NCBI RefSeq assembly: GCF_900115505.1
Contig: NZ_FOWQ01000005.1
Coordinates: 124,001 to 188,000 of the forward strand
Direction: 5' to 3'
DNA length: 64,000 bases
Origin: Geodermatophilus dictyosporus
GTDB taxonomy: Bacteria; Actinomycetota; Actinomycetes; Mycobacteriales; Geodermatophilaceae
Position 1 is the first letter of the stretch; the number at the start of each line of letters is the position of its first letter. The notes under the pieces were generated by a model. The model saw only the letters and a list, made by a program, of their open reading frames with translations, did no database searches and had not been told where the DNA came from. Position numbers and translations under genes: made by a program. Below are positions 34,476-64,000 of this stretch, piece after piece.

Positions 34476-34502
34476 GCCCGGCGCCGGACGAGGAGCACCG
34501 CC

Positions 34503-37970: not shown

Positions 37971-38013
37971 GACCGCCGGGGCACCCGCGCCCCGGGGAGG
38001 GAACGGAGGACCC

Positions 38014-38322: not shown

Positions 38323-38328
38323 GCCGGT

Positions 38329-38368: not shown

Positions 38369-38401
38369 CCGCACCGCACGGCACGGGAGGCCGGCACGTC
38401 C

Positions 38402-48044: not shown

Positions 48045-48556
48045 GCCCGCTGCTCCTCGGTCACGGGGGTGTCGTCGCCGAGCACCCGCGGGTTGGAGCC
48101 GCCGTGCTCGGGGCTCCTGGCCATCAGGCCGACGCGGGTGCACCGCATGACCAGCGTGTCGTCCTGGTTGTAGCCGCGGTGCTCGAACCAGACGATCCCG
48201 CTGTCGGTGCGGCTGCGGCTCTCGCGCTTGTCGAGGATCGTCGTCTCCCCGCGCAGGGTGTCGCCGTGGAACACGGGGTGGGGGAACTCGACCTTGTCGT
48301 AGCCGAGGTTCCCCAGTGTGGTCCCGAAGGTCAGCTCCAGCACGTGGAAGCCGCCGACCAGGGCGAGGGTGAACAGGCTGTTGAACAGCGGCCGGCCGTG
48401 GATGGTGCCCTTGGCGAACTCGTGGTCGAGGTGCAGCGGCTGCGTGTTCATCGTCAGCGACGTGAAGAGCACGTTGTCGCTCTCGGTGACGGTGCGGGTG
48501 AACGGGTGCCGGTAGACCCGGCCGACCTCGAACTCCTCGAAGTACAGACCTCGCAC
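48041..48556 (-). CDS. MaoC-family hydratase (mesaconyl-CoA-hydratase-like)
   Basis: 171 residues from a GTG at 48556. It has YFEEFEVGRVYRHPFTRTVTE, MNTQPLHLDHEFA with the hydratase Asn/His/Asp, and FPHPVFHGDTLRGET. This form is often found beside a CitE-type lyase, as here (2-nt gap). The pair resembles mesaconyl-CoA hydratase with methylmalyl-CoA lyase. The exact substrate is inferred only from that company. Confidence 0.82.
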   Translation of the reverse strand: MRGLYFEEFEVGRVYRHPFTRTVTESDNVLFTSLTMNTQPLHLDHEFAKGTIHGRPLFNSLFTLALVGGFHVLELTFGTTLGNLGYDKVEFPHPVFHGDTLRGETTILDKRESRSRTDSGIVWFEHRGYNQDDTLVMRCTRVGLMARSPEHGGSNPRVLGDDTPVTEEQRA

Positions 48557-48558
48557 GG

Positions 48559-49485: not shown

Positions 49486-49502
49486 CGCCGGCGCGCCTCC
49501 TC

Positions 49503-50669
49503 TCAGTAGCTGCGGGGCAGGCCGAGCACGTGCTCGGCGGTGTAGTTGAGGACCATCTCCTGGCTGATCGGCGCGATCCGCATCAGCCGCGCCTCGCGGA
49601 AGTACCGCTCGACGTGGAACTCCTTGCCGTACCCGAACCCGCCGTGCACCTGCAGCGCGACGTCGGCGGCGAGGAACCCGGCCTCGGCGCAGAGGAACTT
49701 CGCCGCGTTGGCCTCCCGGCCGCAGGGCAGCCCGCGGTCGACGAGCCAGGCCGCCTTCTGCACGACCTGCTCGGCGGCGTCGAGGCGGATCGCGGCGTCG
49801 GCGAGCTGGAAGGAGATGCCCTGGTTCTGCCCGATCGGCCGGCCGAACACCTCCCGCTGCCTGGCGTACTCCACGCCGCGGCGCAGCGCCGCCCGGCCGA
49901 GGCCCAGCGCGGCGTTGGCGCTGATCACCCGCTCGGCGTTGAGTCCGCCGAGGATCGTGCGGAACCCGTGCCCGACCTCGCCGACCACGTCCTCGTCGGC
50001 GACGAACAGGTCGTCGATGAACAACTCGTTGGTGTCGACGGCGTTGCGGCCCATCTTGGGGATCTCGCGGATCTGCACGTGCTCGCGGTCGACCGGCGCG
50101 AAGAACAGCGTCAGGCCCGCCGTCTTCTTCGCCTGCGGGTCGCGTGGGCTGGTGCGGGCCAGCAGCAGCATCCGCTGCGCCTCCTGCGCCTTGGTGATCC
50201 ACACCTTCTTGCCCGAGACCAGCCAGCCGCCGTCGACCTTGCGCGCGGTGGTGGAGATGTTGGTGGTGTCGGTACCGGCGTCGGGCTCGGTGACGGCGAA
50301 CGAGACGTGCAGCTCCCCGCTCGCCGCCTGCGGCAGGAACCGCCGCTTGAGCGACTCCGAGCCGTGCTCGATGACCGGGTGGAAGCCGAAGATGCCGATG
50401 TGCACGGCGCTGCAGCCGCCCATGCCGGCGCCCGACGCCGAGATCTCGTACTCGACCAGCGCCGCCTCGGTGACGCCGAGCCCGCCGCCGCCGTACTCCT
50501 CCGGGATGGTCAGGCCGAGCCAGCCGGCGTCCTTCACCGCGTCGTAGAACCCCCACGGGAACTCGTGCGAGGTGTCGTGCTCCATCCAGTACTCGTCCGG
50601 GAAGGCCTTGCACAGGGCCCGGACGGCCTCGCGGATCTCCCGGTGGGTGGGGTCCTCGGTGAAGTCCAC
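49503..50669 (-). CDS. Acyl-CoA dehydrogenase
   Basis: 388 residues of the FAD-dependent family. FAVTEPDAGTDTTNI and WITKAQEAQRML form the flavin site, GVEYARQREVFGRPIGQNQ the C-terminal helix region, and QVHGGFGYGKEFHVERYFR the dimer/FAD motif. A Glu in ISQEMV aligns with the catalytic-base position of medium-chain enzymes. It introduces the alpha,beta double bond. It is 10 nt downstream of the ligase gene. Confidence 0.92.
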   Translation of the reverse strand: MDFTEDPTHREIREAVRALCKAFPDEYWMEHDTSHEFPWGFYDAVKDAGWLGLTIPEEYGGGGLGVTEAALVEYEISASGAGMGGCSAVHIGIFGFHPVIEHGSESLKRRFLPQAASGELHVSFAVTEPDAGTDTTNISTTARKVDGGWLVSGKKVWITKAQEAQRMLLLARTSPRDPQAKKTAGLTLFFAPVDREHVQIREIPKMGRNAVDTNELFIDDLFVADEDVVGEVGHGFRTILGGLNAERVISANAALGLGRAALRRGVEYARQREVFGRPIGQNQGISFQLADAAIRLDAAEQVVQKAAWLVDRGLPCGREANAAKFLCAEAGFLAADVALQVHGGFGYGKEFHVERYFREARLMRIAPISQEMVLNYTAEHVLGLPRSY

Positions 50670-50679
50670 GGCGGTCTCC

Positions 50680-52347
50680 TCAGCGGACGCCGGCGCTCGC
50701 GGCGACGGCGGTGCGGTCGTGGGTGTCGGGGGTGACGCCGTCGGCGCGGAGCACGGCCTTCTGCACCTTCTCCGACGGGGTCTTGGGCAGCGCGTCGACG
50801 AAGCGGACGTAGCGCGGCACGGCGAAGGCCGGCACCCGGCCGGTGCACCAGTCCCACAGCTCGGTGGCGGTGACGCCCGGGCCGGCCGGGTCGGCGACGA
50901 CGAAGGCCATCACCTCGTCCTCGCCGGCCTCGGAGTCGGCCGCGACGCCGACGACGGCGACCTCGAGCACGCCGGGGTGCGACAGCAGCCCCTGCTCGAC
51001 CTCGTAGGAGCTGATGTTCTCCCCGCGGCGGCGCAGCGCGTCCTTGTAGCGGTCGACGAAGTAGAACCAGCCGTCGGCGTCCCTGCGCAGCGCGTCGCCG
51101 GTGTGGAACCACAGGTTGCGCCAGGCCTCGGCGGTCCTCCCCGGCATGCCGAAGTAGCCCAGCGAGCAGGTCCAGGGGTGCCGCGGGCGGACGACGAGCT
51201 CGCCGACCTCGCCGACGGGCACCTCCCGGTCGGTCTCGGGGTCGACCAGCCGGACGTCGAACCAGTCGGCGGCCTGCAGCCCCGCGGCGCCGGCCGGCCG
51301 GTCCTCGCCGTAGGGCGACAGGATCGGCGCGCTGGTCTCGGTCAGGCCGAAGACCTCGGTGAACGCCTCGATGCCGTAGCGGGCCCGGAACCCCTCGACG
51401 ATCGAGCTGGCGGTGGGCGCGGCGAACACGGTGCGCAGCACGTTGTCGGCGTCGTCCGGGCGCTCGGGCTGCTTCCAGACGAAGTCCATCATCACGCCGA
51501 TGAGGTTGGTGGCGGTGACGCCGGAGTCGCGGAGCTGGTCGACCCAGCGGCTGGCGCTGAACCGGGGCCGGCAGACCAGCCGGGCGCCGGCGATGAGCGC
51601 GGGGTAGGCCGCCATGAACTGGGCGTTGCCGTGGAACAGCGGCGTGCAGGTGAAGTAGGTGTCCTCCGGCGTCAGCCGCTGCAGGCTGACGACCTCCTGG
51701 CCGAAGAAGTACATCTGCGCGTGCGGCATCGCCACGCCCTTGGACGGGCCGGTGGTGCCGGAGGTGAAGAAGATCGAGGCCAGCGCGTGCGGCGGCGGGG
51801 TCGGGAACTGCGCCCCGGGGCGGGCGCCCGCGGCGAGGGCCTCCCACGGGTCGGCGGCCCAGCCGGCCTCGCGGAGCAGCGCCAGCGCCTCGTCCCGGCT
51901 GCCGGTGTCGACCACGAAGAACCGCTCGACCACCCGCGCGGCGTCGCCGACGGCGGGGAACTTGGCGGCGTGCACGTCGTCGATGACGGCGAAGCGGGGC
52001 GCGGAGGTGGCCACCTGGTGCTCGAGGAAGACGCCCTCGTAGGCGGTGTTGATCGGCACCTCGACGGTCCCGCCGATCCCCGTGCCCAGCCACGTGCGCA
52101 GGAACTGCGAGGAGTTGGCCGCCATCACCAGCACCCGGTCGCCGGTGCGCGCACCGGCCTCGGCCAGCCGGTCGGCCACCGACTCGGCGTGCTCGAGCGC
52201 CTGGGCGTAGGTGAGGGTCAGACCCTCCTCGGGCAGGTCGAGGAAGACCGCGTCGGGGCGGCGGGCGGCGTGGTGGCGCAGCACCGTCGCGAGGGTCCAG
52301 TCGCCCTGGTCCGGGAAGGCCGGCACCAGGTCCGTGTAGTAGCGCAT
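50680..52347 (-). CDS. Acyl-CoA synthetase / AMP-dependent ligase 3
   Basis: 555 residues from the ATG at 52347 (GGGGAGAG upstream). ATP loop FTSGTTGPSKGVAMPHA, FGLTETSAP, WFHTGDALRRDADGW, DRYKDALRRRGENISSYEVE and the catalytic Lys end PKTPSEKVQKAVL are present. It heads the long minus-strand operon ligase-ACAD-CitE-MaoC-ALDH-CaiB-SDR-amidohydrolase-crotonase, in which all genes are within about 20 nt of each other. Confidence 0.9.
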   Translation of the reverse strand: MRYYTDLVPAFPDQGDWTLATVLRHHAARRPDAVFLDLPEEGLTLTYAQALEHAESVADRLAEAGARTGDRVLVMAANSSQFLRTWLGTGIGGTVEVPINTAYEGVFLEHQVATSAPRFAVIDDVHAAKFPAVGDAARVVERFFVVDTGSRDEALALLREAGWAADPWEALAAGARPGAQFPTPPPHALASIFFTSGTTGPSKGVAMPHAQMYFFGQEVVSLQRLTPEDTYFTCTPLFHGNAQFMAAYPALIAGARLVCRPRFSASRWVDQLRDSGVTATNLIGVMMDFVWKQPERPDDADNVLRTVFAAPTASSIVEGFRARYGIEAFTEVFGLTETSAPILSPYGEDRPAGAAGLQAADWFDVRLVDPETDREVPVGEVGELVVRPRHPWTCSLGYFGMPGRTAEAWRNLWFHTGDALRRDADGWFYFVDRYKDALRRRGENISSYEVEQGLLSHPGVLEVAVVGVAADSEAGEDEVMAFVVADPAGPGVTATELWDWCTGRVPAFAVPRYVRFVDALPKTPSEKVQKAVLRADGVTPDTHDRTAVAASAGVR

Positions 52348-52446: not shown

Positions 52447-53163
52447 TCACTCCACCAGCGCCGCCTCGCCGAGGAAGGCGCGCAGCACCGAGGCGTGCGA
52501 GCGGGCCTGGGCAGCCGGGCCGCTGAACACCACCTCGCCCCGCGCCATCGCGACGACGTCGTCGGCGACCTCGAGACCCAGCTCGGCGTTCTGCTCCACG
52601 AGCAGGACGGAGAGCCCGTCGTCGGCCATCGCGCGGACGGCCCCCAGCACCGACTCCACCATCGTGGGCGCCAGGCCCATCGACGGCTCGTCGAGCATGA
52701 CCACCCGCGGTGAGCTCATCAGCGCGCGGCCGAAGGCGAGCATCTGCTGCTCGCCGCCGGACAGCAGCCCGGCCGGGCCCGACCGCCGCTCGCGGAGGAT
52801 GGGGAACATCGCGTGGACCCGGTCCAGCACCTCCCGCGAGCGCTCCCGCGAGGCGGTGTAGCCGCCCAGGACGAGGTTCTCCTCCACGGTGAGCGGCGCG
52901 AACACCCGGCGCCCCTCGGGCACCAGCACCACACCCGCCCGCACCAGCCGGTGCGGCGGCAGGCCGGTGACGTCGCGGCCGTCGAGGGCCACCCGCCCGG
53001 CGTGCACCCGGACCAGGCCGGCCGCGGCGCGCAGCGTGCTGGTCTTGCCCGCGCCGTTCGCGCCGAGCACCAGCGTGACCCGGCCGGGCGTGGCCGACAG
53101 GCTCACGCCGCGGACCGCCTCGGCGGTCGCGTACCGGACGTGCAGGTCAGCGATCTCCAGCAC
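52447..53163 (-). CDS. livF: Branched-chain-type ABC transporter ATPase, LivF
   Basis: A 238-residue ABC ATPase with Walker A GANGAGKTS, signature LSGGEQQM, Walker B VVMLDEPSMGL and H-loop region LLVEQNAELGL, typical of LivF. It overlaps livG by 17 nt. It is the last gene of the livK-H-M-G-F operon. Confidence 0.9.
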   Translation of the reverse strand: MLEIADLHVRYATAEAVRGVSLSATPGRVTLVLGANGAGKTSTLRAAAGLVRVHAGRVALDGRDVTGLPPHRLVRAGVVLVPEGRRVFAPLTVEENLVLGGYTASRERSREVLDRVHAMFPILRERRSGPAGLLSGGEQQMLAFGRALMSSPRVVMLDEPSMGLAPTMVESVLGAVRAMADDGLSVLLVEQNAELGLEVADDVVAMARGEVVFSGPAAQARSHASVLRAFLGEAALVE

Positions 53164-53953
53164 GGTGCCCCCTCTTCCCGAGGTACGCCTCCTGGACCGC
53201 GGCGTCCCGGACGACGTCGCGCGGCGGTCCCTCGGCGATCGGCCGGCCCTGGTTCATCGCCAGCAGCCGGTCACAGGTGTCGACCATCATCGAGACGTCG
53301 TGCTCGACGAGCAGCTGCGTGAGCCCCTCGTCGCGCAGCCGGCGCAGCAGGCCGGCGACCTCCAGCCGCTCGGGCTGGTTCATCCCGGCCGTGGGCTCGT
53401 CGAGCATCAGCACCCGCGGCCGGCCGGCCAGCGCCCGGGCGATCTCCACCCGGCGGGCGGTGCCGTAGGAGAGCTCGCCGGGGCGCAGGTCGAGCAGGTC
53501 CCCGACGCCGGTCCGCTCGACGGCCTCCTGCACCGCCTCGGGCACGGTGCGCCGGACCAGCTCGCGCAGCCGGGCACCGCGGCCCAGCCGCAGGTCGGCG
53601 CCGAGCTGGATGTTGCCGAGCACGGTGAGGTCGGGCAGCAGCCGCACGGTCTGGAAGGTGCGCGCGATACCGCGGTGCGCCAACCGGGACGGCGGGGTGC
53701 GGCCGTAGTCCTCGCCGTCGAGGGTCAGCCGGCCGCGGGTGAGCGGGACCAGCCGGGTCAGCGCGGCCAGCAGCGTGCTCTTGCCCGACCCGTTGGGTCC
53801 GAGGACGCCGAGGATCCGGCCGGTCTCCAGGGTGAGGTCGACGCCGTCGACGGCCCTGATGCCGCCGTAGTGGACCGCGACGTCGCTGCCCTGCAGCACC
53901 GCCGCCCCGGTGCCGGGCGCCGGGCCCGCCGGCCGGCCGGACAGCGCGGTCAC
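53147..53953 (-). CDS. livG: Branched-chain-type ABC transporter ATPase, LivG
   Basis: 268 residues from a GTG overlapping the livM stop. Walker A is GPNGSGKST, the LivG-typical GIARTFQTVRLLPDLTV follows, the signature is weak (LSYGTARRVEIARAL), and Walker B is VLMLDEPTAGMN. It forms the ATPase pair with LivF. Confidence 0.9.
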   Translation of the reverse strand: MTALSGRPAGPAPGTGAAVLQGSDVAVHYGGIRAVDGVDLTLETGRILGVLGPNGSGKSTLLAALTRLVPLTRGRLTLDGEDYGRTPPSRLAHRGIARTFQTVRLLPDLTVLGNIQLGADLRLGRGARLRELVRRTVPEAVQEAVERTGVGDLLDLRPGELSYGTARRVEIARALAGRPRVLMLDEPTAGMNQPERLEVAGLLRRLRDEGLTQLLVEHDVSMMVDTCDRLLAMNQGRPIAEGPPRDVVRDAAVQEAYLGKRGHRAGDR

Positions 53954-54903
53954 GGGCGGGCCTCCGCGGCCGGGCCGCCGAGGGCGGCGAGCTGCTGCTC
54001 GGCGTCGGCGGGCACGTCGGCGACCGGTGCGGTGGCGCCCTCGGCCGGGATCCGGCGGCGCCGGACCTGCCACCGGTGCCAGCGGTCCTGGACGAGGCCG
54101 AGCAGGCCGCCCGGCACCCAGACCGCGGCCGCGGCGACGACCACCCCGTAGACGACCAGCTGCCACTCGCCGACGAACTGCAGCACGCTGGGCAGCCAGG
54201 TGAAGACCACTGCGCCGATGGCGGCACCGGCCCAGGACAGCGCCCCGCCGACGATGATCATCGTGAGCGCCGTGACCACGAGGTGGAAGCCGACCGTCTC
54301 GGGCGAGACCGTGGTGCGCAGCAGGCTGTTCATCCCGCCGGCGCAGGCGCCGAGGGCTCCGCTGACGACGAACACGCGACGGCGCACCCGCGTGACGTCG
54401 ATCCCGAGCGAGACCGCCAGGTGCGGGTCCTCGCGGACGGCGTCGACCCGGCGGCCGTAGGCGCCGCGCTCGCTCGCGGCCAGCAGCAGCGCCACCAGCA
54501 CGCTCACCACGACCACGTGCGTGGTGGTCAGCGTGCTGATCGCGCCGTAGAGGCCGGTGGCCCCGCCGGTGAGCTCGCCGCCGTTGGTGGCCAGGACCCC
54601 GAGGAACAGGGCGAAGGAGATGGTGGCCATGCCGAGGTAGAGCCCGGAGAGCCGGGCGACGAGCAGGGCCAGCAGCCAGCCCGCCACGGCCGCGACCAGG
54701 ATGCCGGCGCCGATGGCCAGCACCGGGGCGACCTGGGCCCGGATGGTGAGGATCGCCGCGGCGTAGGCGCCGATCGCGTAGCTGCCGACGCCGGCGAAGG
54801 AGAAGACCCCCGCGCGCAGCGGCACCTGGATCGACAGCGCCAGCAGGAAGCTGATGAAGGTCGACTGGATGAGGACCAGGTGCGAGAAGTACCAGCTGTT
54901 CAC
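53950..54903 (-). CDS. livM: Branched-chain-type ABC transporter permease, LivM
   Basis: A 317-residue membrane protein with SYAIGAYAAAIL, LYLGMATISFALF, REDPHLAVSLGIDVTRVRR and AGGMNSLLRTTVSPETVGF, the LivM pattern. Its GTG start overlaps the livH stop. About 50 C-terminal residues are hydrophilic. Confidence 0.9.
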   Translation of the reverse strand: MNSWYFSHLVLIQSTFISFLLALSIQVPLRAGVFSFAGVGSYAIGAYAAAILTIRAQVAPVLAIGAGILVAAVAGWLLALLVARLSGLYLGMATISFALFLGVLATNGGELTGGATGLYGAISTLTTTHVVVVSVLVALLLAASERGAYGRRVDAVREDPHLAVSLGIDVTRVRRRVFVVSGALGACAGGMNSLLRTTVSPETVGFHLVVTALTMIIVGGALSWAGAAIGAVVFTWLPSVLQFVGEWQLVVYGVVVAAAAVWVPGGLLGLVQDRWHRWQVRRRRIPAEGATAPVADVPADAEQQLAALGGPAAEARP

Positions 54904-55790
54904 GTTCGGCGGACCTCCTGGCGGCCGAGCAGGCCGTTGGGCCGGACGAGGAGCATGACGAAGATGACGCCGAAGGCGATCGCCGGCGCCCAGGTGCCCG
55001 ACGTCGTCACCAGGACCAGGGTCTCGATCCCGGCGAGGACCATCGCGCCGAGCACGACGCCCGCGATGCTGCCGACACCGCCGAGGATGATCGCGGCGAA
55101 CGCCTTGAGCAGGAACGCGTCCCCGGTCTCGGGGGCGATCGAGCCCAGGTAGTAGGTGAGCAGCACGCCGGCCAGCCCGGCGAGCCCGCCGGCGACGGCC
55201 ATGGTGAGCAGGGCCAGGCGACGGCGGTCGACGCCCATCATCGAGGCGACCTCGGCGTCGACGCCGATCGCCCGCAGGGCCAGCCCCGGACGCGCGGCCC
55301 GCAGCCACCAGCCGATCACGCCGGCCAGCCCGAACGCGGCGACCAGCGTCACGAGCTGCACGTTGCTCACCCGGGCGAAGCCCCAGTCCCAGGTGCTCAC
55401 CCGGAAGGAGCTCGCCGAGTAGCCGAACGGGACGCTGCGGGTGGCGTACTGCGCGACCGCCAGCGGGATGATCGCGATGCCGATCCCGCCGACGAGGATC
55501 TGCATCTCGGCCTTGCGGTGGTCGGTGGCCCGGCGCTGGATGGGCTCGAAGGCCAGCACCTGCACCAGCAGGGAGAGCACGGCACCGACCAGCACGCCCA
55601 CGGCCAGCACCGCCGGCAGCGGCAGCGACACCTCCTGCACCAGCAGGTGGGCGGAGAACGCGGCGAACACGAAGATCGAGCCGTGCGCGAAGTTGAGGAT
55701 GCCGATCGTGCCCCAGGCCAGGCTCATCCCGAGCGCGAAGAGCAGGTACAGCGACCCGAGGGTCAGCGCGTTGAGCACGTCCTGTGCCAT
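54900..55790 (-). CDS. livH: Branched-chain-type ABC transporter permease, LivH
   Basis: A 296-residue membrane protein. It has SLYLLFALGMSLAWGTIGIL and NFAHGSIFVFAAF near the N-terminus, the EAA-like RAARPGLALRAIGVDAEVASMMGV loop split as ALRAIGVDAEVASMMGV, and FAAIILGGVGSIAGVVLGA. It partners LivM. Confidence 0.92.
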   Translation of the reverse strand: MAQDVLNALTLGSLYLLFALGMSLAWGTIGILNFAHGSIFVFAAFSAHLLVQEVSLPLPAVLAVGVLVGAVLSLLVQVLAFEPIQRRATDHRKAEMQILVGGIGIAIIPLAVAQYATRSVPFGYSASSFRVSTWDWGFARVSNVQLVTLVAAFGLAGVIGWWLRAARPGLALRAIGVDAEVASMMGVDRRRLALLTMAVAGGLAGLAGVLLTYYLGSIAPETGDAFLLKAFAAIILGGVGSIAGVVLGAMVLAGIETLVLVTTSGTWAPAIAFGVIFVMLLVRPNGLLGRQEVRRT

Positions 55791-55804
55791 GGGGTTCCTC
55801 CCTC

Positions 55805-55842
55805 GCGTCCCGGTGCCGGCGGGGGCGCCGGCACCGGGACGC
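55805..55842. terminator. Strong hairpin between livK and livH
   Basis: A perfect 16-bp stem (55805-55820 with 55827-55842) with a 6-nt loop lies in the 71-nt space after the livK stop. Its position matches the hairpin after the arabinose binding-protein gene, fitting differential expression of binding protein over channel. Confidence 0.65.
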
Positions 55843-55861
55843 GGTGCGGGTCAGCGGTGGG

Positions 55862-57073
55862 TCAGGACTGGCCCTCGACCGGGACCTCGGTGCTGCCGTC
55901 CCACCGGACCAGGACCCCGGGGACCCGGGCGTCGTTGCCCTCGAAGGTGACCTCTCCCTGGGCACCGTCGAAGCCCTCGCCGGCGACGGCGGCCAGGCCC
56001 TCCTGGATCGCGGCGCGGTCGGCGCTGTCGGCCTCGGCGATGCCGCGGGCCAGGAACCACATCGCGTCGTAGGCCTCGGCCGCGTAGTTGTTCGGCGTCT
56101 CGCCGTCGTAGGCCTCGCGGTAGGCCTCGACGAAGGCCTGGGTGCTCTCGACGTCCTGGTCGGGGGTGAAGTTGGTCGGCCACACGAAGCCGGCTGCGCC
56201 GTCGCCGGCCGAGGCGAGGTTGCCCGCGCCGGCCGCGCTCATGCCGATCAGCTCGCCCTGGTAGCCGGCCTGCCGCAGCTGGGTGATCGCCACCGGGTAC
56301 TGCGGCCCCTGGACCATCAGGAAGGCGGCGTCCGGGTCCTCGCCCGCGATGGACGAGGCCGGGGTGGTGAAGTCCTGCTGGGTCGCCTCGACCCCGCCGG
56401 TGCTCACCACCTCGAAGCCGTGCTCCTCGGCCAGCTGGGGGACGACCTCCTCGCCGAGCTGGACCAGCGTCGGGTTGCCGCTGTTGAACAGCACCGAGGC
56501 CGTCGCCACGCCCTGCTCCTCGGCGTACTCGCCGGCCAGGTCGAAGTAGGAGGCCGCGGGCGGGGTGATCCGGAAGGTGAAGTCCCCGGTGACGACGCCC
56601 TCGCTGCCGGCCTGCACGTACACCGTCGGCATGCCCTGCGGGTCGACGATCGGCGAGACGGCCGTCGCCTGCGCGCTCGCCTCGGGGCCGATGACGGCGA
56701 CGTAGGACGGGTCGGCGATCGCCTGACTGGCGAAGCTGGCCGCCTCCTGCGGGCTGGTGGCGCTGTCCCGGGTGTCGACCTCGATGGTCGTCTCGCCGAG
56801 CAGCCCGTCGGCCTCGATCTGCTCGACGGCCAGGTCGATGCCCTTCTGGGCGTTGAGACCGGCGAAGGAGACCGGGCCGGTGAGCGCGCGGATGCTCATG
56901 ACCCGGATGCTGTCGGGCAGGCCCTCGCCCCCGCCGCCACCGCCCCCGCCCGAGGCGCCCTCTCCGGAGGTGCCGGACCCGGGCGAGGTGCACGCGGCGG
57001 CGCCGAGCACGAGCACCAGCGCGCCGGCGCCGTGCAGGGCCCGACGGCACCCCGTCCGTGACAGCGTGACCAT
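55862..57073 (-). CDS. Branched-chain-type ABC transporter substrate-binding lipoprotein, LivK-like
   Basis: 403 residues from the ATG at 57073, with GGGAGG five bases upstream. A lipoprotein signal ends at AAAC (about residue 28), and a long Ser/Gly linker follows. The type I binding fold shows RALTGPVSFAGLNAQKGIDL, VAVIGPEASAQATAVSPIV and EAYDAMWFLARGI. In this family substrates range from amino acids to aromatic and alicyclic acids. Beside catabolic genes, uptake of the pathway substrate is inferred. Confidence 0.88.
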   Translation of the reverse strand: MVTLSRTGCRRALHGAGALVLVLGAAACTSPGSGTSGEGASGGGGGGGGEGLPDSIRVMSIRALTGPVSFAGLNAQKGIDLAVEQIEADGLLGETTIEVDTRDSATSPQEAASFASQAIADPSYVAVIGPEASAQATAVSPIVDPQGMPTVYVQAGSEGVVTGDFTFRITPPAASYFDLAGEYAEEQGVATASVLFNSGNPTLVQLGEEVVPQLAEEHGFEVVSTGGVEATQQDFTTPASSIAGEDPDAAFLMVQGPQYPVAITQLRQAGYQGELIGMSAAGAGNLASAGDGAAGFVWPTNFTPDQDVESTQAFVEAYREAYDGETPNNYAAEAYDAMWFLARGIAEADSADRAAIQEGLAAVAGEGFDGAQGEVTFEGNDARVPGVLVRWDGSTEVPVEGQS

Positions 57074-57318: not shown

Positions 57319-58785
57319 TCAGATGCCCTGGATCATCTTCGTCTCGAGGAAGCCGGCGATGCCCTCGGGACCGCCCTCCCGGCCGAGGCCGGACTGCTTG
57401 TAGCCGCCGAAGGGCTGGGTGACGCACATGCCCCAGTCGTTGACGTAGATCTGGCCGGTCCGCACCCGCCGCGCGATCGCCTCGCCGGCCTCCTTGTCGG
57501 CCGTGAAGACCGCGCCGGAGAGGCCGTACTGCGAGTCGTTGGCGATCCGGACCGCGTCGTCGACGGTGTCGTAGGGGATCACCACGATCACCGGGCCGAA
57601 GATCTCCTCCTGCGCGATCCGCATGGCGTTGTCGACGTCGGCGAACAGCGTCGGCTGCACGTAGTAGCCCTTGTCCAGCCCCGGGGGCCGCCCGCCACCG
57701 GTCACCAGGCGGGCGCCCTCCTCGATGCCGGTGCGGATGTAGCCCTCGACCCGTTCGCGCTGGCGCTCGGCGGCCAGCGGGCCGAGCACGGTGCCTTCCT
57801 CGCGGGGGTCCCCCACCGGCACGGACTCCATGATCGCCTTGACCTGCTCGACGACCTCCTCCTGCTTCTCGCGCGGGACCACGAGACGGGTGAGCGCGGC
57901 GCAGACCTGCCCCGAGCTGCCGATGCCGGCAAAGGTGACCGTCTGCGCCACCGAGGAGACGTCGGCGTCGGGCAGCACGATCGCCGCCGACTTGCCGCCG
58001 AGCTCGAGGGTCACGCGGGCGATCCGCTCGGCGCACAGCGCCATGATCCGGCGACCGGCCGCCGTCGAGCCGGTGAAGGACACCTTGTCGACGTCGGGGT
58101 GCTTGACGAGGTGCTCGCCGACCTCGCGGCCGCCGGGCAGCACGCTGACGACGCCGTCGGGGAGGCCGGCGGCCTCGAGCGCCTCGGCCAGGATCATCAC
58201 CGACACCGGGCCCTCGGGAGCCGGCTTGAGGACGACCGTGCAGCCGGCCGCGAGCGCGGGCGCGATCTTCAGCGACGCGGTGGCCACCGGCCCGTTCCAC
58301 GGGATGATCACCGCGGCGACGCCGACCGGCTCCTTGACGATGGTCGCCTCGCCGCCACCGGCGACCTGCCGGCGCTCCTCGAGCTGCAGGGTCCCGGCGA
58401 GCGTGGCGGCGTCGTCCCACATCGCCGTCGCGTTCGCGTGGAAGGCCTTGCTGATCATGGCGGGGGCGCCGATCTCGACGGTGAAGCTGTGCTCCATCTC
58501 CGGGATCCGCTTGCCGACCTCCTCCCCCACCCGGCGCAGCGCCGCGGCCCGCTCGGCCGGCGACATCCGCGGCCACGGACCCTCGTCGAAGGCCTTCCGC
58601 GCGGCGGCGACGGCGGCGTCCATGTCGGCCGGGCCGGCGTGCGGGACGGTGGCGACGACCTCCTCGGTGACCGGGCTGACGACCTCGATCACCTCGTCGG
58701 TGGCCGGCGGCACCCAGTGGCCGCCGATGAAGAGCTTGTCGAACGAGCGCACGCCGGTGCCGGCGCGCTCCTCCACTGCGGTCAC
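57319..58785 (-). CDS. Aldehyde dehydrogenase 2
   Basis: 488 residues. IPWNGPVATASLKIAPALAA and TVVLKPAPEGPV form a normal NAD site with the conserved Lys, VTLELGGKSAAIV contains the general-base Glu and SGQVCAALTR the nucleophilic Cys. GTG start with AGGAGG upstream. It is third in the operon ADH-SnoaL-ALDH, so it likely oxidises the aldehyde made by the ADH to a carboxylic acid. Confidence 0.9.
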   Translation of the reverse strand: MTAVEERAGTGVRSFDKLFIGGHWVPPATDEVIEVVSPVTEEVVATVPHAGPADMDAAVAAARKAFDEGPWPRMSPAERAAALRRVGEEVGKRIPEMEHSFTVEIGAPAMISKAFHANATAMWDDAATLAGTLQLEERRQVAGGGEATIVKEPVGVAAVIIPWNGPVATASLKIAPALAAGCTVVLKPAPEGPVSVMILAEALEAAGLPDGVVSVLPGGREVGEHLVKHPDVDKVSFTGSTAAGRRIMALCAERIARVTLELGGKSAAIVLPDADVSSVAQTVTFAGIGSSGQVCAALTRLVVPREKQEEVVEQVKAIMESVPVGDPREEGTVLGPLAAERQRERVEGYIRTGIEEGARLVTGGGRPPGLDKGYYVQPTLFADVDNAMRIAQEEIFGPVIVVIPYDTVDDAVRIANDSQYGLSGAVFTADKEAGEAIARRVRTGQIYVNDWGMCVTQPFGGYKQSGLGREGGPEGIAGFLETKMIQGI

Positions 58786-58812
58786 GGGAGTCCTCCTGTG
58801 CGGGTGGTCGGG

Positions 58813-59259
58813 TCAGGCATCGAAGCCCTCGAGCTCGGGCGGGGTCAGCGCGGAGATGCGCCGGGTGGAGATCCGCCAGCCCTGCGGCGTGCGGCGGTAG
58901 GTGTCCTCGTTGAGCGCGATCGCCTTGAACGCCGCCCCGCTCCTCGTGTGCCCCTCGGAGAACACGTAGTTGGTGCCGGTCGCGGTGTCCCCGTCGTCGG
59001 ACAGGTCCACGACGTGGTTGGTGATGACGTGGAACTGGTCGGCGATCGCGGCGGCGTCCCGCTCGAAGAAGCCGAGGATCGCCGCGCGCCCCTCGAACCG
59101 CTCCAGGCCGACGGGGGTGGTGTCCCAGACCGCGTCGTCGGTGAAGGCCGAGACGGCCTCCTGCGGGTCGAAGCGGTCCAGGCCGCGCGCGTAGAGGTGC
59201 GTGGCCCGCTGGATGTCGAGCACGTCGGCGACCCGGGTGTCGGGCCGGGTGAGGGTCAT
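58813..59259 (-). CDS. SnoaL/NTF2-fold protein 4
   Basis: A 148-residue SnoaL-like protein with QRATHLYARGLDRFDPQEAV, AFTDDAVWDTT, GRAAILGFFERD and GWRISTRRISAL. It sits between the ADH and ALDH genes with 10- and 27-nt spacings. The role is unknown; a hydrolase or dehydratase step between alcohol and aldehyde stages is possible. Confidence 0.75.
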   Translation of the reverse strand: MTLTRPDTRVADVLDIQRATHLYARGLDRFDPQEAVSAFTDDAVWDTTPVGLERFEGRAAILGFFERDAAAIADQFHVITNHVVDLSDDGDTATGTNYVFSEGHTRSGAAFKAIALNEDTYRRTPQGWRISTRRISALTPPELEGFDA

Positions 59260-59269
59260 CCCCGGTGCC

Positions 59270-60391
59270 TCAGTCGTCGTAGACGATGACGCCGCGGAGG
59301 TTCTTGCCCTCGCGGAGGTCGGCGAAGGCCTCGTTGATCTGCTCGAGCTTGTACGTCCTGGTGATCAGCTCGTCGAGCTTGAACTGACCGCTCTTGTACA
59401 TCTCGGCGATGAGCGGGATGTCGTTCTTGGAGTTGGTCGTCCCGTAGAGCGAGCCCTGCAGCCGCTTGCCCGACATGGCGAAGCTGAACAGGTCGAACTG
59501 CACGTCGCGCTGCAGCACCGGCGCGGCCGCCGTCAGCACGATCACGCCGCCGCGGCGGGTGAGCTGGTTGGCCTGCTCGACGATGTCCCCGCGGGCCACG
59601 TCCACGGTGATGATCACCCGGTCGGCGCCCTGGCCGTTCGTCATGTGCTCGATGACCCGCTGGGCCTCCTCGAAGGAGCCCACCGAGTGGGTGGCACCGA
59701 ACTGCTTGGCCTTCTCCTGCTTGAACGGCACCGGGTCGACCGTGACGATGTTGCGCGCCCCGCGGTGCACCGCGCCCTGGACGGCGTTCATGCCGACGCC
59801 GCCGGTGCCGAAGACGACGACGGTGTCGCCGAGCTGGATCTCGGCCGCGTACACCGCCGAGCCCCAGCCGGTGGGGACGCCGCAGCCGATGAGCGATGCG
59901 GGCATCAGCGGGATCGACGGGTCGATCTTGACCGCCGAGTCGACCGGCACCGTGACGTAGGGGCTGAACGTGCCGAGGTAGCTCATCGCGCCGACGCCCT
60001 GGCCGCGCGCGTGGATGCGGTGGGTGCCGTCGGGGGCGTAGCCGGCCAGCACGCCGGCACCGAGCTCGCACATGTTGGCGCGGCCGGCGACGCACATCCG
60101 GCACTTGCCGCACGAGGGCAGGAACGAGAGCACGACGTGGTCGCCCTCGGCCAGCTCGGTGACCTCGGGGCCGACCTCGGTGACGACGCCGGCGCCCTCG
60201 TGGCCACCCAGGATCGGCGCCCAGCCCAGCGGGATGTCGCCGGTGTCGAGGTGGTCGTCGCTGTGGCAGATGCCCGAGGAGGTCAGCTTGACCATGACCT
60301 CCCGGCGCTTGGGCGGGTCGAGCTCGATCTCCTCGACGCTCCACCCCGAGTGGGTCCCGGGCTCCCACAGCAGTGCTCCGACGGTCTTCAC
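59270..60391 (-). CDS. NDMA-dependent (mycofactocin-type) zinc alcohol dehydrogenase
   Basis: A 373-residue zinc MDR dehydrogenase. MKTVGALLWEPGTHSGWSVE, the catalytic zinc Cys/His in GICHSDDH and GGHEGAG, the structural zinc cluster CGKCRMCVAGRANMC and GTGGVGMNAVQGAV are seen. The LGAGVLAGYAPDGTHR and YLGTFSPYVTV segments match the NDMA-dependent subfamily, whose NAD is not exchangeable and is reoxidised by mycofactocin. GTG start with GAGGGAG upstream. It is divergent from the esterase-BVMO genes. Confidence 0.88.
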   Translation of the reverse strand: MKTVGALLWEPGTHSGWSVEEIELDPPKRREVMVKLTSSGICHSDDHLDTGDIPLGWAPILGGHEGAGVVTEVGPEVTELAEGDHVVLSFLPSCGKCRMCVAGRANMCELGAGVLAGYAPDGTHRIHARGQGVGAMSYLGTFSPYVTVPVDSAVKIDPSIPLMPASLIGCGVPTGWGSAVYAAEIQLGDTVVVFGTGGVGMNAVQGAVHRGARNIVTVDPVPFKQEKAKQFGATHSVGSFEEAQRVIEHMTNGQGADRVIITVDVARGDIVEQANQLTRRGGVIVLTAAAPVLQRDVQFDLFSFAMSGKRLQGSLYGTTNSKNDIPLIAEMYKSGQFKLDELITRTYKLEQINEAFADLREGKNLRGVIVYDD

Positions 60392-60497
60392 GGCGCTCCC
60401 TCGAGTGGACGGTCCCGGGGCGTCCTCGCACCCGGGTGCGTACGGCGGACCCCGGCGGCCGGGGAGGCGGCGGGCGGTCCGGTGGGGTGACCGTAGC

Positions 60498-60514
60498 CAT
60501 CCGCACCGCGGATG
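60498..60514. repeat. Inverted repeat in the ADH/esterase divergent region
   Basis: CATCCGC-ACC-GCGGATG is a perfect 7-bp inverted repeat, about 107 nt upstream of the ADH start. The 266-nt region 60392-60657 also has the direct repeat CCCTGCGCAT (60524-60533 and 60576-60585), the first copy forming CCTGCG-N7-CGCAGG. These are candidate regulator sites; no gene lies here. Confidence 0.4.
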
Positions 60515-60569
60515 CGGAAGAGTCCCTGCGCATCTTTCGCAGGTTCTGGACAAACGCGTCGAGGGCCCC

Positions 60570-60616
60570 TTGCTTCCCTGCGCATGGTCTACCTAGTTTG
60601 TGTGGTCTGAGTCACC
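60570..60616 (+). promoter_or_regulatory. Promoter of the esterase-BVMO operon with TGTGG-N6-TCACC site
   Basis: TTGCTT (60570-60575), 18 nt, TAGTTT (60594-60599). TGTGG-N6-TCACC (60601-60616) begins two bases past the -10, so it covers the probable transcription start. Confidence 0.5.
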
Positions 60617-60657
60617 CGAGGCGGCGGCGAGGCCGCCTGCTCCCCCTGGAGGCGCGC

Positions 60658-61599
60658 ATGGCCCTGGACGAGGCGACGACGGCGCTGCTCACGCAGATGG
60701 CCGAGAGCGGCGCCAAGCCGCTGCACGAGATGACCCCGGAGGAGGCCCGCGGCCTGACCGCGGCCCTCGGTGAGATGTACGGCCCCGGGCCCGAGATGCA
60801 CCGGGCGGAGATGACCAGCGCGCCGGCGGACGACGGGTACGCGATCCCGCTGCACGTCCTCGTGCCGGACGAGGACCCCCGCGGCGTGCTCGTCTACTAC
60901 CACGGCGGCGGCTGGGTGATCGGCGCGCTGCCGGAGTTCGAGACCCTCGGCAGGACCCTCGCCCAGCGCACCGGGTGCGCGGTCGTGCTCGTCGACTACC
61001 GGATGGCGCCGGAGAACCCCTACCCGGCGGCCGTGAACGACTCCTGGGCGGCGCTGAGGTGGATCGACGGGCACCTGACCGAGATCGCCGGGGCCCGCGT
61101 GCCGCTCGTCGTCGCCGGCGACAGCGCGGGCGGCAACCTCGCCGCGATCGTCGCGCACAAGGCCCGGGACGCCGGCGGGCCGGCCATAGCGATGCAGGTC
61201 CTCGTGTACCCGGTGACCGACTGCGACCTGGACAACGAGACCTACCGCGACCCCGAGAACCAGACGCTGCTCACCCGCGAGTCGATGGTGTGGTTCTGGG
61301 ACCTCTACGCCCCGGAGCACGAGATGCGACAGCACCCGGAGGCCTCACCGTCCAAGCTCGAGGACCACTCCGGCCTGCCCCCGGCCGTCGTCCTGCTCGC
61401 CGAGCACGACGTGCTGCGCCAGGAGGGCCAGGAGTACGCCGAGGCCCTCGAGCGGGCCGGCGTCCCCGTGCAGAGCCGCGTCTTCGCGGGCCAGATGCAC
61501 GGCTTCTTCACGATGGTCAACGTGCTGCCCGGCAGCGAGGCCGGCATCGCCTACGTCGTCGAGGCGGTCGACCGCCAGCTCACCGCCCAGCCCGCCTGA
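60658..61599 (+). CDS. Alpha/beta-hydrolase, hormone-sensitive-lipase family (possible lactonase)
   Basis: 313 residues. The oxyanion motif HGGG is at 82-85, the nucleophile Ser156 in GDSAGG, the acid in AEHDVLRQEG and the His in QMHGFF. VDYRMAPENPYPAA is typical of this family. Located directly before a BVMO gene, it probably hydrolyses the ester or lactone made by that enzyme. GGAGG lies six bases before the ATG. Confidence 0.88.
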   Translation: MALDEATTALLTQMAESGAKPLHEMTPEEARGLTAALGEMYGPGPEMHRAEMTSAPADDGYAIPLHVLVPDEDPRGVLVYYHGGGWVIGALPEFETLGRTLAQRTGCAVVLVDYRMAPENPYPAAVNDSWAALRWIDGHLTEIAGARVPLVVAGDSAGGNLAAIVAHKARDAGGPAIAMQVLVYPVTDCDLDNETYRDPENQTLLTRESMVWFWDLYAPEHEMRQHPEASPSKLEDHSGLPPAVVLLAEHDVLRQEGQEYAEALERAGVPVQSRVFAGQMHGFFTMVNVLPGSEAGIAYVVEAVDRQLTAQPA

Positions 61600-61673
61600 C
61601 CCGACACCCGTTCCGCACGACCCGGCCGCCGGCACCGTGCCGGCGGCCGGCCTCCGAGGGGAGAGGAAGACAC

Positions 61674-63338
61674 ATGACCGAGACGGCGACCCGACCGGCT
61701 CCCGACACCAGCGTCGGGGAGGTCGACGTCGTGGTGGTGGGCGCCGGCTTCTCCGGGCTCTACCTGCTGCACCGGCTGCGCGGCCTGGGCTTCCGGGTGC
61801 TGGTGTTCGAGGCCGGCGACGGCGTGGGCGGCACCTGGTACTGGAACCGCTACCCCGGCGCCCGCGTCGACGTGAAGAGCATGGACTACAGCTTCTCGTT
61901 CGACCGCGAGCTCGAGCAGGAGTGGGAGTGGACGGAGAAGTACCCGCCGCAGGAGGAGCTGCTGCGCTACGTGAACCACGTGGCCGACCGCTTCGACCTG
62001 CGGAAGGACATCCGCCTGGAGACCCGGGTGACCGAGGCCGTCTGGGACGACGAGGACGCCCGGTGGATGGTCCGCACCGACCGCGGTGACCAGGTGTCGG
62101 CCCAGCACGTGATCATGGCGACCGGCTGCCTGTCGACGTCGAAGGTGCCCGAGGTGCCGGGCCTGGAGACCTACACCGGCCGCTGGTACCACACCGGGCA
62201 CTGGCCCAAGGAGGGCGTGGACTTCAGCGGCCAGCGGGTCGGCGTCGTCGGCACTGGTTCCTCCGGCGTGCAGTCGATCCCGCTGATCGCCGAGCAGGCC
62301 GCGCACCTGACCGTCTTCCAGCGGACGCCGAACTTCGTCGTCCCGGCGCACAACCACCCGATCGACCCCGAGCACCAGCGCTCGGTGAAGGCCGAGTACG
62401 ACGAGTACCGCCGGGCCAACCGCGAGTCCGGCTTCGGCATCGCGGTCCCGCCGGCGACCAAGGGGGCGCTCGAGGCGAGCGAGGAGGAGCGCCAGGCCCT
62501 CTGGGAGCGGGCCTGGTACGACCGCGACAACAGCCTGGTCACCTTCCTCACCGGCTTCACGGACATGATCACCGACAAGGCGGCCAACGACACCGCCGCC
62601 CAGTACGTGCGCGACCGGATTGCCGAGATCGTGGAGGACCCCGAGGTCGCGCGGCTCCTGCAGCCCACCGACCACCCGTTCGGCACCAAGCGGCCGTGCC
62701 TGGGCACGAACTACTACGAGACCTTCAACCGGCCCAACGTGCGCCTGGTCGACGTGCGCAAGGACCCGATCGTCGAGATCACGGCCAAGGGCCTGCGCAC
62801 CGGCACCGAGGAGTTCGAGCTCGACGCGCTGGTCTTCGCCACCGGCTTCGACGCGATGACCGGCGCGCTCACCGCCGTCGACATCCACGGCCGGGACGGC
62901 CGCTCGCTCCGGGAGTCGTGGGCCGCCGGGCCCCGCACCTACCTGGGCGTCCAGATGGCCGGCTTCCCGAACCTCTGGACGATCACCGGCCCGGGCAGCC
63001 CGTCGGTGCTGTCGAACATGATGGTGTCCATCGAGCAGCACGTGGAGTGGGTCACCGACGCCATCGTGGCGCTGCGCGACGAGGGCCTGGCCACCATGGA
63101 ACCCGACGAGGGCGCCCAGGACGGCTGGACCAGGCACGTCGACGAGGTCGGGCACATGACGCTCTACCCGTCGGCGAACTCCTGGTACATGGGCGACAAC
63201 GTGCCCGGCAAGCCGCGGGTGTTCATGCCCTACATCGGGGGCGTCGGCCCGTACCGGCAGAAGTGCGACGAGGTCGCGGCCAACGGCTACGAGGGCTTCG
63301 TCCGCCGTCCGCAGCGCGTGCCGGCCGGCATGAGCTGA
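61674..63338 (+). CDS. Baeyer-Villiger monooxygenase (cyclohexanone-monooxygenase-like) 1
   Basis: 554 residues. The FAD motif is GAGFSG (23-28), the BVMO fingerprint YTGRWYHTGHWP (167-178; Tyr replaces the usual first Phe), and the NADPH motif GTGSSG (193-198). VGGTWYWNRYPGARVD and FATGFDAMTGAL are typical of the cyclohexanone/steroid BVMO group. It inserts oxygen next to a ketone to give an ester or lactone. It lies 74 nt after the hydrolase gene with GAGAGGA upstream of the ATG. Confidence 0.93.
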   Translation: MTETATRPAPDTSVGEVDVVVVGAGFSGLYLLHRLRGLGFRVLVFEAGDGVGGTWYWNRYPGARVDVKSMDYSFSFDRELEQEWEWTEKYPPQEELLRYVNHVADRFDLRKDIRLETRVTEAVWDDEDARWMVRTDRGDQVSAQHVIMATGCLSTSKVPEVPGLETYTGRWYHTGHWPKEGVDFSGQRVGVVGTGSSGVQSIPLIAEQAAHLTVFQRTPNFVVPAHNHPIDPEHQRSVKAEYDEYRRANRESGFGIAVPPATKGALEASEEERQALWERAWYDRDNSLVTFLTGFTDMITDKAANDTAAQYVRDRIAEIVEDPEVARLLQPTDHPFGTKRPCLGTNYYETFNRPNVRLVDVRKDPIVEITAKGLRTGTEEFELDALVFATGFDAMTGALTAVDIHGRDGRSLRESWAAGPRTYLGVQMAGFPNLWTITGPGSPSVLSNMMVSIEQHVEWVTDAIVALRDEGLATMEPDEGAQDGWTRHVDEVGHMTLYPSANSWYMGDNVPGKPRVFMPYIGGVGPYRQKCDEVAANGYEGFVRRPQRVPAGMS

Positions 63339-63367
63339 GGCGGTCGGCTCCCGCGGTGAGCCTGGCG

Positions 63368-63403
63368 ACGCCCCGCACGGGTCTTGACCCCCGTGCGGGG
63401 CGT
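63368..63403. terminator. Hairpin terminator between the two BVMO genes
   Basis: A 14-bp perfect stem (63368-63381 with 63390-63403) and an 8-nt loop lie about 30 nt after the first BVMO stop. Its loop and right arm overlap the -35 and spacer of the next promoter. Confidence 0.65.
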
Positions 63404-63427
63404 TCCTAACTTGTGGTGCAGGTCACA
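63384..63427 (+). promoter_or_regulatory. Promoter of the second BVMO gene with TGTGG-N6-TCACA site
   Basis: TTGACC (63384-63389), 17 nt, TAACTT (63407-63412), then TGTGG-N6-TCACA (63412-63427) sharing one base with the -10. The layout equals that of the SDR promoter at 27533-27577. Confidence 0.55.
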
Positions 63428-63499
63428 CCGACCGGCCCACCCGCTCCCCGGACCCTCCGGCCGGGTCCGTGGACGCGCTTCCCCGCCGAGGAGCTCGCC

Positions 63500-64000
63500 A
63501 TGACCCAGCCCAGCCCCGTCCCTGCCCCCACCGACGGATCCGCGAGCGGACGGTCCGTCGACGTCGTCGTGATCGGCGCCGGGTTCTCCGGCATGTACCT
63601 CCTGCACCGGCTGCGCGGGCACGGGCTGCGGGTGCAGGTGTTCGAGATGGCCGACGACGTCGGCGGCACCTGGCACTGGAACCGCTACCCCGGTGCCCGC
63701 TGCGACATCCGGAGCATGGAGTACTCCTACTCCTTCGACCCGCAGCTGGAGCAGGAGTGGCAGTGGACGGAGAAGTACCCGACCCAGCCGGAGATCCTGC
63801 GCTACGCCCACCACGTCGCCGACCGCTTCGACCTGCGCCGTGACATCCGCTTCCGCACCCGCGTCGAGTCGACCGTGTGGGACGACGCCGCCGAGCGCTG
63901 GACGGTGCGCACCGACGGCGGCGAGGAGTGGACGGCGCAGTTCGTCGTCCATGCCTCGGGCTGCCTGTCGATCTACAAGAAGCCGGAGATCCCGGGGCTG
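63500..64000 (+). CDS. Baeyer-Villiger monooxygenase 2 (partial, cut by window end)
   Basis: The first 167 residues are present from the ATG at 63500 (GAGGAG upstream). IGAGFSGMYLLHRLRG is the FAD motif and DVGGTWHWNRYPGARCD follows. By eye it is roughly two thirds identical to the first BVMO over this stretch, so the pair looks like a tandem duplication, but it has its own promoter. The fingerprint region lies beyond the window. Confidence 0.9.
   Translation, partial: MTQPSPVPAPTDGSASGRSVDVVVIGAGFSGMYLLHRLRGHGLRVQVFEMADDVGGTWHWNRYPGARCDIRSMEYSYSFDPQLEQEWQWTEKYPTQPEILRYAHHVADRFDLRRDIRFRTRVESTVWDDAAERWTVRTDGGEEWTAQFVVHASGCLSIYKKPEIPGL

Follow-up and report, generated by a model that had tools for sequence, protein, structure and literature searches.

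What does a pair of Baeyer-Villiger monooxygenase (BVMO) genes do in Geodermatophilus dictyosporus, where it lies behind a hydrolase gene and divergent from two dehydrogenase genes? The question is raised by a cassette at the end of a 64,000-nt stretch of this genome (contig NZ_FOWQ01000005.1, positions 124,001 to 188,000), the whole of which is called the window here and provides all coordinates unless stated otherwise. A preliminary description had likened the cassette to cyclohexanone degradation. We put at about 0.5 the probability that the cassette cleaves the ketone as one half of a single catabolic pathway encoded over ~46 kb (window ~25.8 to ~72.0 kb, the final 8 kb lying outside the window), the likely substrate being a bulky, terpenoid-like alicyclic compound. 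The module is more than that description saw, namely a BVMO-hydrolase catabolism with a probable and unusual mycofactocin dependence, and no published account of it was found in the open-licence literature.

Gene content of the cassette

The cassette consists of two divergent gene sets, as first described, and its open reading frames, families and intact motifs agree with that reading.

57319-58785, minus strand: aldehyde dehydrogenase (ALDH), 488 aa; PF00171, 533.5 bits; motifs LELGGK and GQVC
58813-59259, minus strand: SnoaL_4/NTF2-like protein, candidate lyase or dehydratase, 148 aa; PF13577, 91.8 bits
59270-60388, minus strand: N,N-dimethyl-4-nitrosoaniline (NDMA)-dependent (mycofactocin) zinc alcohol dehydrogenase (ADH), 372 aa; TIGR03989, 527.9 bits against a cut-off of 440
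60658-61599, plus strand: HSL-family alpha/beta hydrolase, presumed lactonase or esterase, 313 aa; PF07859, 239.5 bits; HGGG82 and GDSAG154
61674-63338, plus strand: type I BVMO of STMO/PAMO type (BVMO1), 554 aa; STMO (4ap3) 647.1 bits, PAMO (1w4x) 645.5, TmCHMO 540
63500-65197, plus strand (window ends at 64000): type I BVMO (BVMO2), 565 aa; STMO 672.2 bits, PAMO 655.1, TmCHMO 507.1

Domains were called with NCBIfam (cut-offs 440 for TIGR03989, 300 for TIGR03971 and 265 for TIGR03962) and Pfam, and the HSL, ADH, ALDH and BVMO motifs were read with their customary meanings. The mycofactocin type that had been proposed for the ADH is borne out by its TIGR03989 score; its CGKCRMC motif is intact and the Pfam ADH domains are matched. 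The ALDH reaches no NCBIfam cut-off among the matches listed (25 of 43), and its homologues in the Prauserella and Saccharopolyspora clusters are 70-72% identical. The hydrolase matches 11 NCBIfam models, none at cut-off (best LipP1, 315.6 against 350), and its Abhydrolase_3 domain with the HGGG and GDSAG motifs points to the HSL family; lactone hydrolysis is presumed.

Both BVMOs exceed the cut-off of the FMO-like family PF00743 and carry GxGxx[GA] Rossmann motifs and GTKR/GSKR. The type I BVMO fingerprint is FxGxxxHxxxWP, which reads YTGRWYHTGHWP in BVMO1 (Tyr in first position) and FRGAWYHTARWP in BVMO2. By two Rossmann motifs, fingerprint and active-site Arg, the two proteins classify as type I BVMOs. 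BVMO2 is cut by the window end and complete in the host contig.

Linkage to a second gene set

The cassette is not a chance assembly, because ALDH-SnoaL-ADH and the divergent HSL-BVMO pair recur in seven further Geodermatophilaceae loci (L046-L051, L070), where they are followed, as here, by genes for a short-chain dehydrogenase/reductase (SDR), a luciferase-like monooxygenase (LLM), an acyl-CoA dehydrogenase, a thiolase and a GntR protein. More widely, of the best 80 among 451 named loci, 30 have a hydrolase homologue on the BVMO strand at a distance of no more than 600 bp (one of the 30 homologues is just 31% identical), as do 24 of the 74 outside the Geodermatophilaceae; in none of the Actinomadura and Nocardia loci among them does one lie so close to the BVMO1 relative. 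Several loci end at contig edges, so that these neighbour counts are lower bounds.

The cassette has a counterpart in a second gene set at window ~25.8-39.9 kb, here called the second half. Its genes from 34065 to 38935 are listed first, and its P450, ferredoxin and SDR genes further below.

34065-34475, plus strand: SnoaL protein
34503-36056, plus strand: CoA ligase
36057-36533, plus strand: 158-aa protein, no Pfam match, found between the ligase and MaoC genes wherever order-level layouts show it
36530-36961, plus strand: MaoC protein
36958-37380, plus strand: 4HBT thioesterase
37398-37970, plus strand: SnoaL protein
38014-38322, plus strand: EthD protein
38402-38935, plus strand: SnoaL protein

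In Saccharopolyspora ipomoeae (L117) and in four Prauserella species (L126, L138, L140, L141), a single same-strand run, which ends in the ALDH on one side, holds HSL, BVMO, ADH, SnoaL, SnoaL, CoA ligase, 36057-type protein, MaoC and 4HBT thioesterase. The genes of this run correspond to those at 57-65 kb and 34-38 kb of the window, the homologues of 34065-37380 continuing directly from HSL-BVMO-ADH-SnoaL. An additional genome of the genus Prauserella (L172) likewise has the two halves in one same-strand run. Within the genus (26 genomes), the cassette SnoaL gene is present in seven genomes and the second-half ligase in the identical seven; the HSL gene is found in the same seven and, at 69%, in one more. 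The chance of identical sets is 1/C(26,7) = 1.5e-6 (1 in 657,800), a figure that assumes independent genomes and ignores shared descent. In a survey of 397 genomes of the order, the ligase was found in 18 (E<=1e-180), and the 20-kb regions around it were read in 17 of these, our own genome being left out. The complete HSL-BVMO-ADH-SnoaL run, with BVMO and HSL at least 60% identical, is present in four of the ten ligase-bearing genomes from outside the family (L172, L173, L174 and L176); the last three are the contigs named above as L138, L126 and L141. Judged by these gene orders, the cassette is one half of a larger conserved module of ~46 kb.

A proposed mycofactocin-linked route

The remaining genes that are assigned to the module supply oxygenases, further dehydrogenases, CoA chemistry and an importer.

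25820-26653, minus strand: mycofactocin-coupled SDR; TIGR03971, 409.5 bits
26679-27515, minus strand: mycofactocin-coupled SDR; TIGR03971, 360.5 bits
28909-30096, minus strand: ferredoxin reductase (Pfam)
30110-30310, minus strand: ferredoxin (Fer4_15)
30414-31691, plus strand: cytochrome P450 (P450a); top matches CYP125MRCA and P450cin, also CYP142
31758-32597, plus strand: mycofactocin SDR; TIGR03971, 413.9 bits
32674-33936, plus strand: cytochrome P450 (P450b); top match CypX
38969-39853, minus strand: additional mycofactocin-coupled SDR; TIGR03971, 340.8 bits
40844-42382, minus strand: CoA ligase
42983-43753, minus strand: enoyl-CoA hydratase
43746-44582, minus strand: amidohydrolase
ending at 44579, minus strand: SDR, named by eye, start not fixed
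45328-46512, minus strand: CoA-transferase III
46572-48044, minus strand: second ALDH (reading frame and family match, as for the next three)
48559-49485, minus strand: CitE/HpcH-type lyase
49503-50669, minus strand: acyl-CoA dehydrogenase
50680-52347, minus strand: CoA ligase
52447-57073, minus strand: branched-chain-type ATP-binding cassette (ABC) importer, with binding protein 55862-57073 (PF13458) and, named by eye, permeases 54900-55790 and 53950-54903 and ATPases 53147-53953 and 52447-53163

In loci of Geodermatophilaceae and Prauserella, importer homologues adjoin the cassette; in L165 and L166, homologues of the enoyl-CoA hydratase, amidohydrolase and CoA-transferase are neighbours of the second half. 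The genes at 46572-52347 would belong to the module by their position. Elsewhere in the window, genes for an isomerase, an epimerase and a kinase of arabinose utilisation (9986-13802) and ABC sugar-transport-like genes (16123-20192) were recognised by eye.

From gene content, families, motifs and conserved linkage we infer the reactions, their order and the substrate as follows. The ABC importer would take the substrate in, and a P450 with ferredoxin and reductase would hydroxylate it. A mycofactocin-coupled SDR could convert the secondary alcohol to a ketone, next to whose carbonyl a PAMO/STMO-type BVMO would place an oxygen atom. The HSL hydrolase would open the lactone or ester, and the mycofactocin-type zinc ADH and the ALDH would oxidise the released primary alcohol to an acid, which the CoA ligase(s), the MaoC-type hydratase, the acyl-CoA dehydrogenases and the thiolase might degrade by beta-oxidation. 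The SnoaL proteins would probably act as small NTF2-type lyases or isomerases on a hydroxylated intermediate, and the 36057-36533 protein is perhaps, to go by its position, a hotdog-type partner of MaoC. The enzyme logic first proposed is retained in this scheme in the form ketone to ester or lactone, to alcohol plus acid, to aldehyde, to acid; an acyclic ketone would be a less likely substrate.

TIGR03971 and TIGR03989 are both families tied to mycofactocin, and TIGR03971 includes the carveol dehydrogenase of Rhodococcus erythropolis DCL14 (PMC3023750). The genome encodes an MftC-type radical SAM protein (TIGR03962, 652.6 bits; other mft genes were not searched) and nine TIGR03971 SDRs (E<=1e-80), five of which lie within 40 kb (C11:149826-190095, window 25.8-66.1 kb). 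Counted at the same threshold and compared by a rank test, such SDRs number 7, 7, 8, 9, 10, 12 and 12 in the cassette-bearing genomes of the genus and 0-6 in the other 19, a surplus to which the SDRs of the cluster itself contribute. A bolder version, to which we give somewhat less than an even chance, would see here an undescribed pathway with mycofactocin wiring from end to end: a segregated redox pool would be fed by the five TIGR03971 SDRs and the TIGR03989 ADH of these 40 kb, alongside exchangeable PAMO/STMO-type BVMOs and small NTF2-fold lyases, and a terpenoid or other bulky ketone would be consumed by Geodermatophilus, Prauserella and Saccharopolyspora. To our knowledge, few natural substrates of mycofactocin-dependent enzymes have been established. 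The module places over half of the genome's TIGR03971 SDRs beside BVMOs and a lactonase-type hydrolase, which makes the question of mycofactocin substrates testable here, and an inducing substrate, once found, would reveal the role of mycofactocin in it. The PAMO/STMO-type BVMOs with their matched hydrolase are also offered for biocatalysis.

Kinship of the BVMOs and the nature of the ketone

Several observations weigh against the pathway proposed above, the first being the kinship of its BVMOs. Both are nearest to PAMO and STMO, and this kinship is equally compatible with acyclic or aryl ketones. The known ketones of PAMO and STMO are acyclic or side-chain ketones (for STMO, also PMC12239570). 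The module could accordingly be read as an acyclic-ketone pathway, in which a methyl or aryl-alkyl ketone is turned into an ester by the BVMO and split by the HSL hydrolase into alcohol and acid, ADH and ALDH oxidising the alcohol as in the degradation of acetone and methyl ketones. Such an operon is known from Gordonia TY-5, in which the BVMO and esterase encoded by acmA/acmB make and split methyl acetate (PMC6215540). P450s, several mycofactocin SDRs, CoA ligases and MaoC nevertheless look over-elaborate for a short ketone, and we regard this reading as rather improbable. A two-residue bulge in the active site distinguishes PAMO from CHMO, but STMO and OTEMO carry similar bulges and take very different ketones. 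OTEMO is a monocyclic-ketone enzyme (PMC4966971), a point against the acyclic reading; the bulge therefore does not fix the substrate and was dropped as proof of its type.

The same kinship bears on the model of the preliminary description, a simple chn-type pathway that takes cyclohexanone or another cycloalkanone through lactone and hydroxy acid to dioic acid. The set of BVMO, HSL-type hydrolase, ADH and ALDH is indeed present, and the order lactonase-ADH-ALDH is used in an engineered cascade from cyclohexane to adipate (PMC7542165). Among solved structures, however, the best PAMO match exceeds the best CHMO match by 105 bits for BVMO1 and by 148 bits for BVMO2, the remaining CHMOs falling below TmCHMO; by closest kinship neither protein falls in the CHMO subgroup, STMO and PAMO ranking first. 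BVMO1 aligns with PAMO and STMO in shared stretches around PGARxD, GTKR and SPSVLS. The ADH belongs to TIGR03989, and such a pathway would not account for the linked P450, ferredoxin, SDR, ligase and MaoC genes. The likeness to cyclohexanone degradation holds less well beyond the enzyme set, and we hold a chn-type pathway to be improbable.

The two BVMOs are 63% identical. In a tree built by a quick method from 99 sequences (both window BVMOs plus 97 of 109 tblastn matches; L066-L069, L071 and L116, which duplicate G loci, had been removed, as had identical rows and rows below 450 aa), BVMO1 falls in a group of 33 rows from Geodermatophilaceae, Actinomadura and Nocardia (SH-aLRT 100), whereas BVMO2 is joined by two further rows of the genus (SH-aLRT 100). 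These separate clades rule out a recent tandem duplication; they are consistent with different substrates, of which they give no evidence. The BVMOs of the Prauserella and Saccharopolyspora runs form a further group apart from both, so that the BVMO slot of the module is not filled by strict orthologues. Among plasmid records, BVMO1 is matched in 127, one of them at 60-80% identity.

The tandem arrangement to which attention had been drawn is present and intact here, and is a minority trait: both BVMOs occur in two of eight Geodermatophilaceae cassettes (our own and seven relatives), the other being that of Geodermatophilus sp. LHW52908 (G005; L051:4500-8051). As deposited, BVMO1 of that locus is interrupted at codon 147 by an in-frame stop, and the 450-aa rule removed it from the tree; the first ~62 residues of its BVMO2 lie in another frame. 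Either decay or sequencing error could account for these interruptions. Since both frames are interrupted, an intact tandem is seen in our genome only, which lowers the weight of the tandem and leaves the odds of the readings unchanged.

One pathway or two, and the steroid alternative

Further points against a single pathway come from genomes in which the halves part company. Among the ten ligase-bearing genomes outside the family, four have the second half without a BVMO in the 20 kb read: L170 has ADH and SnoaL, L167 and L168 have SDR, SnoaL, ligase, 36057-type protein, MaoC and 4HBT alone, and L175 shows SDR, SnoaL and ligase in its 20 kb but neither the 36057-type protein nor MaoC nor 4HBT. 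Two others (L169 and L171) have a distant BVMO together with P450a, ALDH or transporter homologues. Their BVMOs (L169:12141 and L171:6869) are 31-34% identical to BVMO1, as if the oxygenase had been swapped while the core stayed. In addition, no homologue of P450a or P450b was found in the Prauserella and Saccharopolyspora stretches examined. The BVMO cassette might then stand alone, next to an independent P450/SDR/ligase set for another substrate. The distance between the two halves would suit such a neighbourhood, as ligase and cassette SnoaL lie 24.3-29.9 kb apart in the six genus genomes that have both on one contig, and on different contigs in G005. Two independent pathways would, however, have to share the same presence pattern across 26 genomes of the genus and to be joined in one unbroken run in five named genomes from two further genera, which we consider quite unlikely.

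A steroid side-chain pathway, with a BVMO that turns a 20-ketosteroid into a 17-acetate for the HSL hydrolase to split, would draw on STMO as the best PDB match of both BVMOs and on the LLM gene conserved beside the cassette in Geodermatophilaceae (the Caenibius pdc cluster also pairs BVMO with LLM), but is highly unlikely: our genome has no match to KshA_C (PF19298), the mark of the 9,10-seco steroid route, nor to the KstD-like protein of the Prauserella cluster (a search that had no positive control), and a primary-alcohol ADH and ALDH pair would be unnecessary, because the released 17-alcohol is secondary. The LLM oxidoreductase gene lies at L010:2125-3171 (window frame 66125-67171). The KstD-like FAD_binding_2 proteins accompany the Saccharopolyspora and Prauserella versions (L117:18654-20339, L141:19761-21440), and that of L117 is nearest to 4-oxocyclohexanecarboxylate 2-dehydrogenase, under the cut-off of that model.

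The SnoaL protein

The cassette SnoaL protein (58813-59259), which matches no NCBIfam model, was modelled with AlphaFold (AF2) at a pLDDT of 88.8. The model has the NTF2-like fold of the scytalone dehydratase/LinA/BaiE type, a fold that by itself shows no function: it matches 3b8l, LinA (Z ~20), scytalone dehydratase (4std, Z 16.5) and bile-acid 7-alpha dehydratase (4leh, Z 18.0), and in the same structure comparison ketosteroid isomerases and uncharacterised proteins equally well. Residues Y23, D28, H77, N81 and H82 are invariant across 13 aligned homologues. D28 and H77 may be the counterparts of the catalytic residues of LinA and BaiE, and our working guess is that the protein may be an Asp-His lyase. 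The Pfam matches are SnoaL_4 and SnoaL_2, with none to an epoxide-hydrolase family, and the candidate of a limonene-epoxide hydrolase was set aside. In a sparse sample of 396 genomes of the phylum, our own genome was the sole match (E<=1e-35), and the 12 plasmid records matched were all below 60% identity. The SnoaL genes of the window are small and separate, unlike the paired SnoaL domains in one frame of L174:11785-12645 (287 aa; the same gene as L162:3625-4485) and L117:13334-14182 (282 aa).

The divergent intergenic region

The Geodermatophilaceae loci share both the divergent layout and the 269-bp region between the diverging genes, in and near which candidate regulatory sites were sought.

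60526-60542, strand not assigned: CTGCG-N7-CGCAG inverted repeat between the diverging genes, candidate operator
60570-60599, plus strand: promoter-like TTGCTT-N18-TAGTTT ahead of the hydrolase and BVMO genes (pattern match)
63384-63412, plus strand: promoter-like TTGACC-N17-TAACTT ahead of BVMO2

A 17-mer similar to the inverted repeat occurs in all eight Geodermatophilaceae regions and in 0 of 4000 mononucleotide shuffles, and is a perfect inverted repeat in four of the eight; the pattern was chosen after inspection. In the window it has a single match at up to three mismatches (0.18 expected). The pattern TTGN3-N18-TA[CG]TTT is found in seven of the eight regions and in 1 of 4000 shuffles, a post hoc count, as an earlier promoter pattern had matched one of eight and was then altered. 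Separate promoters had been proposed for the two BVMOs. For BVMO2 the proposal finds some backing in the TTGACC-N17-TAACTT element, the sole match in the window to a pattern likewise chosen after the stretch had been read, but BVMO1 starts 74 bp downstream of the hydrolase, and no promoter came out of a scan of window 57200-66000 with a strict consensus. Conservation of the cassette extends to a GntR/FCD gene (window frame 71186-72028), which adjoins the hydrolase in Prauserella.

Comparison with known systems

The best sequence matches of both BVMOs are PAMO of T. fusca and STMO of R. rhodochrous, a likeness of sequence. The four-gene progesterone cluster pdc of Caenibius tardaugens resembles the module in having an LLM gene close to a type I BVMO gene, both enzymes performing the same Baeyer-Villiger step (PMC12239570); unlike the setting of pdc, our genome has no KshA match, and hydrolase, ADH, ALDH and SnoaL are added here. 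The acmAB genes of Gordonia TY-5 likewise combine BVMO and esterase in one operon (PMC6215540), whereas the present module is far larger and its BVMOs are nearest to PAMO and STMO among solved structures.

The chn pathway of Acinetobacter shares BVMO, lactonase-type hydrolase, ADH and ALDH with the cassette. It is defined by a CHMO-type BVMO and an ordinary NAD-dependent ADH, in place of which the cassette has another BVMO type and a mycofactocin-type ADH, with a GntR/FCD gene nearby and extra P450, SDR, ligase and MaoC genes.

The nearest described logic is that of the carveol/dihydrocarvone (limonene) route of R. erythropolis DCL14, the resemblance being one of enzyme order. There too a mycofactocin-type SDR, carveol dehydrogenase, is followed by a BVMO and then by a lactone hydrolase, MlhB, and CoA activation has been described for the sister limonene-1,2-diol branch (PMC7794910, PMC3023750). 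Unlike that route, the module of G. dictyosporus probably employs a P450 as its oxygenase, and it has STMO/PAMO-type BVMOs, a mycofactocin zinc ADH with an ALDH, and several SnoaL_4 proteins.

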